A stretch of 35,125 nt of DNA from positions 1 to 35,125 of the forward strand of contig JAURVK010000165.1 of the NCBI GenBank assembly GCA_030655535.1, read 5' to 3'. Below are positions 15,746-35,002 of this stretch, in pieces (within the stretch, counting starts at the first letter, position 1; every line of letters begins with the position of its first letter). The stretch is from Methylobacter sp. GTDB taxonomy: Bacteria; Pseudomonadota; Gammaproteobacteria; Methylococcales; Methylomonadaceae. The translations under genes and the position numbers were made by a program. The notes below the pieces were generated by a model. It was given only the letters and a program-made list of their open reading frames with translations. It was not told the origin of the DNA and ran no database searches.

Positions 15746-16615
15746 TCATCGTTGATCAACAGCCGTCGCTGTCGGCGCCAAATTTAATAATTTGGCGCGT
15801 TGTTCATCATTAGCGCCATAACGGGCGAAAGCCTGCGCCATTAATACCAAAACCACTCGCCTGTTCTTAAATCGCCCCGTCTCTATGTTGTTATCGCCAA
15901 TAGGATGAAACTCGCCATAACCAATGGCTGACAAATGGGGCGGATTAATGCCGTCCTTGACAAACTCATGTACGACGCTGGTCGCACGAGCAGATGACAA
16001 ATCCCAGTTCGACCTGAATTTTAGATTATCGATAGGAACATTATCGGTATGCCCTTCAATATTAATCATGTTTGGCAATGGCTTGATCACTTCGACAATT
16101 TTTTTCAACACGGGTATCGCTTTTTTGGACAATTCCGCCTCACCGCTCAAGAATAACAGCTCACTATTCATTTCCAGCTCTATCCAATAATCGTTTTTTT
16201 TAACTGAAACCAGCTCATCATCAATAAAAGGCGCTAAAACCTGTTCGAATTGATCGGACACTTGGCTCAACTGCCTTCTTTCTTTTAATATTTCTTCGCT
16301 CAGCTCCCGCCTTTTTTCAATTTCCACCGTCGTGGGATTTTCTAATGGAATAGGTTGTATGATCGTCGACAAAGCGCCAGCCTCAATGGAGATAACTTCG
16401 TTGCCCTGCTGTTCTTTATTTGAAAATGCTTCGCCTAATGAATCGGACAATGACTTGTACTTCCCTTCATTGACCGATGAAATTGAATACATGACCACAA
16501 AAAATGCAAATAACAAGGTAATGAAATCCGCGTAAGACACCATCCATCGGTCATGATTTGTAGTAGGCGACCGGCGGTCGGCCGCCCCTACATATCTTTT
16601 CATTCGCCTCGTCAT
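15746..16615 (-). CDS. motD: Flagellar motor stator protein MotD (MotB-like, OmpA family)
   Basis: The protein has a short charged N-terminus, one membrane helix (SYADFITLLFAFFVVMYSIS) with the proton-binding aspartate at Asp30, and a periplasmic OmpA/peptidoglycan-binding domain (NIEGHTDNVPID, then SNWDLSSARATSVV and GYGEFHP). It pairs with MotC to form a stator that drives flagellar rotation. I chose ATG 16615 because AAAGG lies 8 nt upstream. ATG 16639, overlapping the motC stop, would add eight residues. Unusually, the N-terminal codons for VGAADRRSP fall within a genome-type palindromic repeat (16563-16591). Confidence 0.93.
   Translation of the reverse strand: MTRRMKRYVGAADRRSPTTNHDRWMVSYADFITLLFAFFVVMYSISSVNEGKYKSLSDSLGEAFSNKEQQGNEVISIEAGALSTIIQPIPLENPTTVEIEKRRELSEEILKERRQLSQVSDQFEQVLAPFIDDELVSVKKNDYWIELEMNSELLFLSGEAELSKKAIPVLKKIVEVIKPLPNMINIEGHTDNVPIDNLKFRSNWDLSSARATSVVHEFVKDGINPPHLSAIGYGEFHPIGDNNIETGRFKNRRVVLVLMAQAFARYGANDEQRAKLLNLAPTATAVDQR
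16563..16591. repeat. REP-like palindrome inside the motD coding region
   Basis: The stretch reads GTAGGCGACCGGCGGTCGGC followed by CGCCCCTAC, a GC-rich inverted repeat closely related to the 51-bp palindrome at 33544-33594 (which has GTAGGGGGCGACCGGCCGGT). It lies in frame within the cytoplasmic N-terminus of MotD and does not break the reading frame. The surrounding DNA is much poorer in G and C. Confidence 0.65.
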
Positions 16616-16628
16616 AGCCAAGCCTTTA

Positions 16629-17399
16629 CTATGCGTCATGCAGATAGCCGTCCAATTTCAGCTTGATATTTATTGGATTTTCGCCATCTGCAATAGCGAT
16701 AATGCCCTCAGTCAGCATTTCCCTGGCTTGAGTCAATGCAAGCACATGGGTTTTTAATTTATTCGCAACCGGCAAAAAAATCAGGTTGGCAGAACCCACA
16801 CCGTATATTGTCGCGACAAAAGCAGTCGCGATCCCTTGACCTAAAAGTCCCGGGTTAGTCAGATTCTGCATCACATGAATTAAGCCCATGACGGCACCGA
16901 GAATACCGATGGTCGGCGCATAACCGCCCATAGCTTCATACAATCCTGCCGCCTGTAAGCCCATATTTTCCTTGGAATATATATCCAGATCCAATATCTC
17001 ACGTATTGCATCAGGATTATTTCCGTCAACCAACAACTGCAAACCCTTTTTTATAAACGGATCTTTTTCGTTAGGCAGCGCATTTTCAAGACCCAACAAA
17101 CCTTCCTTTCGTGCCAGATGGCTCCAGTAAATCACCTTGTCGATTTGCGCCGAAAGATCCGCTTCTTTGGGTATTAATATCCACGAAAACATTTTCATGC
17201 TTCTGACAAAAATAGCCGGTGGAAATTGCAAAAGCGTCGCCCCGAATGTTCCCCCAAACACAATAATAAGTGCCGGCACATTAACCAACGAACTGATGTC
17301 GCCGCCATCCAATACGATCCCCAGCAGAATCGCACCGACACCGACTAAAACACCGGTGATGCTTAAAATATCCATTTTTTTAGTTTTCAACTCGGCCAC
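16629..17399 (-). CDS. motC: Flagellar motor stator protein MotC (MotA family)
   Basis: The 256-residue protein has four membrane segments and the MotA/PomA layout. The first is near residues 10-30, with GVGAILLGIVLDGG. The cytoplasmic loop contains KKGLQLLVDGNNPDAIREIL. The final pair of helices includes GYAPTIGILGAVMGLIHVMQNL and GIATAFVATIYGVGSANLIFLPVANKLK. It is the channel partner of MotD. The length and the DGGDIS region suit the Pseudomonas MotC or Vibrio PomA type. It starts 9 bp after the fliA stop. Confidence 0.94.
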   Translation of the reverse strand: MAELKTKKMDILSITGVLVGVGAILLGIVLDGGDISSLVNVPALIIVFGGTFGATLLQFPPAIFVRSMKMFSWILIPKEADLSAQIDKVIYWSHLARKEGLLGLENALPNEKDPFIKKGLQLLVDGNNPDAIREILDLDIYSKENMGLQAAGLYEAMGGYAPTIGILGAVMGLIHVMQNLTNPGLLGQGIATAFVATIYGVGSANLIFLPVANKLKTHVLALTQAREMLTEGIIAIADGENPINIKLKLDGYLHDA

Positions 17400-33543: not shown

Positions 33544-33594
33544 TGTAGGTCGTTGTAGGGGGCGACCGGCCGGTCGCCCCTACAACGACCTACA
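33544..33594. repeat. 51-bp near-perfect palindrome between adk and the CBS gene
   Basis: The left arm begins TGTAGGTCGTTGTAGG and is followed by GGGCGACCGG; the right arm is CCGGTCGCCCCTACAACG and ends ACCTACA. The arms match completely except for one extra G on the left (five G against four C). It is very GC-rich in an AT-rich gap of the divergent adk/CBS region and has no ORF. The core recurs in motD (16563-16591), so it belongs to a dispersed REP-like family. Its transcript would fold into a very stable hairpin. Confidence 0.85.
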
Positions 33595-34822: not shown

Positions 34823-34883
34823 GAAGCGACTCAGTCTTGTTGTTTAAAAGCCTCTAACTTCTTAGCCCGCACGGCAAAAGAGT

Positions 34884-35002
34884 AGGGGCGATCCGGCACG
34901 ACTGCAAGGACAGATATTTGCTCCTGCAATATCTGCATTCACCACATCCCTGTGGATTATGCAGGAGGTAGAGCAACGCAGGAGCAGTTGCCGAGGTCGC
35001 CC
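34884..35002. repeat. Nested inverted repeats related to the REP-like family
   Basis: The outer left arm GGGGCGATCCGGCACGACTG (34885-34904) is an imperfect inverted match of CAGTTGCCGAGGTCGCCC (34985-35002). Inside, GCTCCTGC (34921-34928) faces GCAGGAG (34961-34967) and GCAGGAGC (34978-34985) in inverted sense. The outer arms share GTAGGGGCGA with the palindrome at 33544-33594, so this may be a REP-like pair with an internal insert. Confidence 0.5.

Follow-up and report, generated by a model that had tools for sequence, protein, structure and literature searches.

GTAG-type REPs have been known inside genes, including tRNA synthetase and recBCD genes, since 2013 (Di Nocera et al., PMC3733652). 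In Rickettsia, palindromic elements of about 150 bp have been described (PMC10969869), and RPE-4 and RPE-6 are counted as short REPs of R. conorii in PMC3733652. The TnpA-REP enzymes cut at CT, and one group of them acts on perfect palindromes (PMC8266576).

The repeat described here, found inside motD of a Methylobacter-like genome, resembles the GTAG REPs of PMC3733652 in being a short GTAG palindrome that is dispersed and mostly intergenic, with RAYTs in the genome and some copies in genes. It differs from them in that many copies have CTAC at the other end, that filled and empty sites can be compared genus-wide, and that one copy appears to fuse two genes. Like the Rickettsia elements, it is a palindromic repeat lying in frame inside unrelated protein genes, but it measures 28 nt instead of about 150 bp and belongs to another bacterial class, a line that RPE-4 and RPE-6 blur. 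With the group 3 REP/RAYT pairs of PMC8266576 it shares a perfect palindrome next to GTAG and the presence of the enzyme family in the genome, whereas no RAYT was found here flanked on both sides by this repeat.

It is therefore a new family of a known kind, in-frame copies of GTAG REPs in genes having been published already; what is new is the filled/empty comparison, the gene fusion and the filling of the same sites in separate lineages. The string "methylo" has no hit in the main text of PMC3733652, and a literature search, whose coverage excluded most subscription journals, gave among the matches listed neither a Methylobacter report of this family nor a case in which a REP joins two genes. 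On the question of how REPs move, a genus in which 11 of 23 genomes have the family, alongside empty relatives and with inserts in conserved genes, offers junctions to read. Such natural filled and empty sites can reveal how these repeats spread and alter proteins; here a tiny repeat rewrites core proteins (IleS, Fmt, PBP1A and RecC) and seems to merge two genes into one open frame.

The palindrome in motD

The window, i.e. the whole stretch of 35,125 nucleotides that was analysed, is contig C140 of a Methylobacter-like MAG (G000; 2.76 Mb, 179 contigs, 88% complete), most of whose named relatives are Methylobacter. The features around motD are the following.

15746 to 16639, reverse strand: motD open reading frame, 297 codons from the first ATG
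16563 to 16591, reverse strand: REP-like palindrome GTAGGGGCGGCCGACCGCCGGTCGCCTAC, encoding VGAADRRSP in frame in MotD
16629 to 17399, reverse strand: open reading frame directly upstream of and overlapping motD, which by its position we take to be motA

An earlier note had placed a REP-like palindrome inside motD, and it is present exactly there: positions 16591 to 16563, read on the motD strand, give GTAGGGGCGGCCGACCGCCGGTCGCCTAC, and the reading frame stays open through it (...KRYVGAADRRSPTTNHDRW...). The true start of motD, judged by comparison with relatives, is probably 16615 (MTRRMKR) and not 16639. The NCBIfam MotD model scores 295.6 bits (cut-off 283) and covers residues 26 to 269, directly after the repeat peptide, which sits in a variable N-terminal stretch before the conserved RW..SYADF segment. 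An insert at this point, before the conserved membrane-proximal segment, is probably neutral.

A GTAG-type repeat family in the genus

A genome search with the initial 16 nt of the motD copy returned 29 strand hits at up to 2 mismatches (control: 1) and revealed the consensus GTAGGGGCGACCGGCCGGTCGCCCCTAC of a dispersed palindrome family, of which the motD copy is a divergent member. The 20-nt core occurs at 43 genomic places at up to 3 mismatches (reversed control: 0); these places and the motD copy form the 44 copies examined, among which C159:8264 and C135:7449 were kept even though they look like chance matches. A 24-mer at up to 1 mismatch is present in 11 of the 23 genus genomes, with 1 to 99 strand hits each, and in none of the 214 other genomes of the taxonomic family that were searched outside the genus. 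Most copies are intergenic, 13 of the 44 being judged to lie in genes and one more (msbA) being doubtful.

The unit of 28 nt falls within the 20-40 bp range of GTAG REPs and is present in many dispersed copies. Of 98 distinct copies in the fetched loci, a set that was in part (the G012 loci) chosen for having both ends, 53 show a single one of the two ends, GTAG or CTAC, 33 show both and 12 show neither; in many cases the GTAG head can pair with a CTAC tail, in contrast to the classical unpaired head. The ends are altered but remain perfectly paired in three in-gene copies, those in fmt of G022 (L157, GTTG/CAAC), recC of G021 (L201, GTGA/TCAC) and c101 of G021 (L241, GTAA/TTAC). Selection on the paired arms was considered and set aside, the signal being weak.

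Very probably, the palindrome in motD belongs to a family of GTAG-type REPs with a unit of 28 nt, which among the genomes searched is confined to the window's genus; its copies were presumably spread by a RAYT, with selection removing inserts that broke reading frames. The view of the earlier note that a dispersed repeat lies in frame in the MotD N-terminus is borne out by the 43 genomic places besides the motD copy and by filled and empty orthologues across the genus.

Copies inside genes

The genome-wide count and in-gene fraction that the note had proposed as a check come to 44 copies, 13 of them judged to be in genes: motD, ileS, recC, PBP1A, pepN (last codons), the genes of a YbfF-like esterase, an Hsp70-like protein and a CHAD protein, an 826-aa open frame without family, c101, cbiG, fmt and comEC. 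Where no family match backed them, short ORFs and copies at the edge of an ORF do not enter this count, and the msbA copy probably lies upstream of the true start. For six of the 13 (motD, ileS, recC, PBP1A, c101 and fmt) empty orthologous alleles were read, and the other seven calls were made from ORF and family context, joined in the case of the 826-aa open frame by its G021 orthologue, which has a copy at the same place.

The 13 copies are read as VGATGRSPL in eight cases and as RGDRPVAPT in five. The third reading frame of the repeat begins with TAG and is used by none of the 13, partly by construction, because the search for spanning ORFs misses copies whose TAG ends the ORF. The frame bias was accordingly dropped as a proof of selection, since the search sees neither TAG-ended ORFs nor frameshifted genes; open frames are what selection against broken genes would leave. 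A preference of in-gene copies for the two-sided form was dropped as well (classes assigned by eye): in G000, 8 of 10 two-sided copies against 5 of the 34 others are in genes (P 0.00025), but the same comparison runs in the opposite direction in G021 (1 of 17 against 5 of 14, P 0.07), and the G012 regions, chosen as two-sided, were not used.

Other repeats are also read as protein. A second repeat, TCCCACGCNNGAGCRTGGGAACGAG, is in frame in PBP1A (L128, G000:C74), giving SHAGAWERG where relatives have QDKT or similar, and is found elsewhere in the genome at L029 and L095. A third, GCATACACACCATCCCTGGCGATC (AYTPSLAI, in reverse IARDGVYA), adjoins the REP in frame in the Hsp70-like gene and in comEC (L020 and L107; G000:C121 and C177).

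Filled and empty orthologous sites

Across the genus, orthologous sites occur in both filled and empty form. IleS is filled in one of the 20 genus genomes with an orthologue (G000, VGATGRSPL); the 19 relatives have a four-residue segment instead (REQL in 18), and two PDB alignments of IleS are five residues shorter at the repeat site. At the DNA level 12 host nucleotides are replaced by 27, which rules out a clean insertion in ileS. The earlier reading as an insertion needs correcting here: at the site that can be read in detail (IleS) host codons have been replaced.

Fmt is filled in 4 of 21 genomes, PBP1A in 6 of 23 (two of these with 3 core mismatches) and site A of RecC in 4 of the 21 genomes with any match, of which four are weak matches. 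These counts were taken from core scans and not from the alignments, which, being made by pattern, missed alleles and hold 16 of 23 rows for PBP1A and 11 of 22 for RecC. The loop length of PBP1A varies among empty alleles too. The empty PBP1A allele of G016 reads TCCCTACAAATCGG, and the right end CTAC can therefore pre-exist. Site B of RecC is filled in G019, G009 and G008 and degraded in G018, and its filled and unfilled alleles are mostly equal in length. In G005 (L285) the RecC site of the REP is occupied by another insert, about 20 residues long. G008 has two RecC matches on different contigs (L271 and L290), the second of which groups with G001 and is possibly contamination or transfer.

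An orthologue-level match to MotD is found in 17 of the 23 genus genomes. The note had called this motor gene essential; MotD is not, and six of the 23 genomes, some of them incomplete, have no such match (G002, G007, G013, G015, G020 and G022, in which the gene is lost or missing from the assemblies). The comparison of MotD among close relatives, which the note had suggested, gave an intact palindrome in two of the 17 (G000 and G021), a degraded one in five and a shorter segment in ten, as is also seen in outgroup genera. In G021 the same place in motD holds near-consensus DNA, and not the same residues in unrelated codons, the case that the note had named as counting against it. G006 keeps the 3' half (14/17 matches). 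In G003, G014, G016 and G017 the segment has the filled length and 18-21/33 matches to G021 (shuffle P <= 0.0003), a similarity to which shared flanking codons, uncontrolled by the shuffle, add; we read this divergence as decay of the repeat. The range of intact, half, diverged and empty alleles suggests that the filling of the motD site is old or happened more than once, and that its copies decay.

Fusion of two genes at c101

In 17 of the 20 genomes with a match to c101 there are two separate matches, an ATP-grasp ORF and an ORF for H4MPT-linked C1 transfer. The 16 that were readable (all but G003) agree: the upstream ORF ends, in another frame, 10 or 13 nt ahead of the second ORF's conserved motif. 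An ATG at -18 or -21 makes the ORFs overlap in 13 of the 16; for G015, G011 and G019 the script took a nearer ATG, and the sequence has one at -18 as well. In the other three of the 20 the REP replaces both the upstream stop and the downstream start, and a single open frame runs through both genes (721 codons in G000, 687 in G012 and 738 in G021). To judge from these sequences, the REP has joined two overlapping genes into one open frame.

The same sites in separate lineages

At c101, fmt, PBP1A, RecC and motD the repeat is found at the same position in different clades, each of which has close relatives with an empty site. In a genus tree built, with the repeat masked, from the six genes for which empty alleles were read, G000, G021 and G012 belong to three well supported groups. 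The single-gene trees for fmt, PBP1A, recC and c101 largely track the species, and filled alleles from different clades do not cluster in them; the weak spots are fmt, where support for the positions of G000 and G021 is poor, and c101, where that for G000 is only 0.58.

Three histories are candidates: favoured sites may have been filled anew, very short recombination tracts may have been exchanged, or an old insertion may have been lost repeatedly. Repeated loss appears the least likely at c101, because the empty alleles keep the same start and stop. It is plausible, and we propose it tentatively, that these in-gene sites have been filled again and again, either by site-directed re-insertion or by filled alleles spreading through very short recombination tracts. 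If so, REPs would be a recurrent protein-editing element that can even fuse two neighbouring genes.

Transposases and the spread of copies

G000 has 12 Y1_Tnp matches, and all 10 ORFs scanned pass the cut-off of NCBIfam REP_Tyr_transpos (REP-associated tyrosine transposase). In this assembly (88% complete) the exact repeat flanks none of the 12 loci. A solitary half-site lies 652 nt from one of them, and one RAYT has a sibling repeat, GTGGGGGCGACT..AGTCGCCCCCAC, on either side. Among 37 Y1_Tnp loci of relatives (a subset of the matches) scanned by pattern, one, at a short IS200-like ORF in G021, has a copy, on one side only. At L117 (G000:C31) the open frame of a RAYT opens with three tandem copies of a peptide like RNPECKLCLQGRRSLHSN, probably another repeat read as protein.

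A RAYT acting as single-strand transposase would spread copies by cutting at C|T and joining them to a CT-containing target. Inserts that break a frame would be removed by selection, and those in loops, termini and linkers would survive, some of them long enough to degrade. The CTAC score at empty junctions exceeds that of the control by a small margin among related alleles (IleS 2.47 against 1.89, PBP1A 2.53 against 2.10, RecC 2.27 against 2.02, c101 2.58 against 1.98, motD 2.90 against 1.91, and fmt 2.00 against 1.96, with the anchor failing for most fmt alleles). By eye, CT stands at the right junction of the empty allele in 15 of 19 for IleS, 10 of 17 for PBP1A, 7 of 11 for RecC, 9 of 12 for c101 and 7 of 10 for motD, counts that come without a CT-only control, from related alleles, with G006 taken as empty and with the upstream stop codon within the CTAA of c101. 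What is seen are filled and empty sites and no movement; the action of a RAYT is inferred.

The main rival dispenses with a transposase: by template switching, or by gene conversion over very short tracts between REP copies, a replicating end that matches in a few bases would copy a REP at another place and then switch back. Such a process would account for the replaced host bases and for microhomology, several empty RecC alleles already having the palindrome's left arm, GGCGAC. For c101 and fmt, filled alleles of different clades resemble one another more closely in the adjoining 20 nt of flank than they resemble their empty sisters, and ACGTCC next to the c101 repeat is common to G012 and G021. 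The flank result is, however, partly an artefact, inflated by gaps beside the insert that count as mismatches, and PBP1A and RecC have no such pattern overall. The three in-gene copies with altered yet pairing ends (GTGA/TCAC, GTAA/TTAC and GTTG/CAAC) also fit this process, but paired changes exceed the shuffles weakly (inner pairs 4 against 1.06, P 0.019; outer pairs P 0.85; all 14 pairs P 0.53). We regard this explanation as rather unlikely and prefer spread by a RAYT.

The motD hairpin and other copies in the window

The RNA fold of the motD strand has -23.9 kcal/mol (z = -5.5), with none of 200 shuffles equally stable. This stable fold, just behind the motD start, would suit a cis regulatory mRNA hairpin kept for that role; the palindrome is, however, absent in 10 and degraded in 5 of the 17 genus genomes with motD, and the positions of the in-gene copies vary from gene to gene, which makes such a role very improbable.

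The window holds two further features that belong here.

33552 to 33584, no strand assigned: second family member, an almost perfect palindrome that lies between a pair of divergent ORFs and within a longer inverted repeat (33544-33594)
34882 to 34890, forward strand: isolated half-site GTAGGGGCG, followed by ATCCGG

The first lies in the gap that the earlier note had labelled adk/CBS and said to contain the same palindrome; it is a member of the family, but it is not identical to the motD copy (76% over 33 nt). The 26 nt of the motD palindrome have a GC content of 85%, against 44% for motD, and a search of the window with this 26-mer at up to 3 mismatches gave no second match, nor did 100 shuffles. 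That a GC-rich coding stretch became palindromic by chance would agree with the divergence of the motD copy from the other window copy, but is scarcely credible given that no shuffle matched, that G021 has near-consensus DNA at the same place and that there are 43 genomic copies. The half-site at 34882 to 34890 is perhaps a degraded copy.
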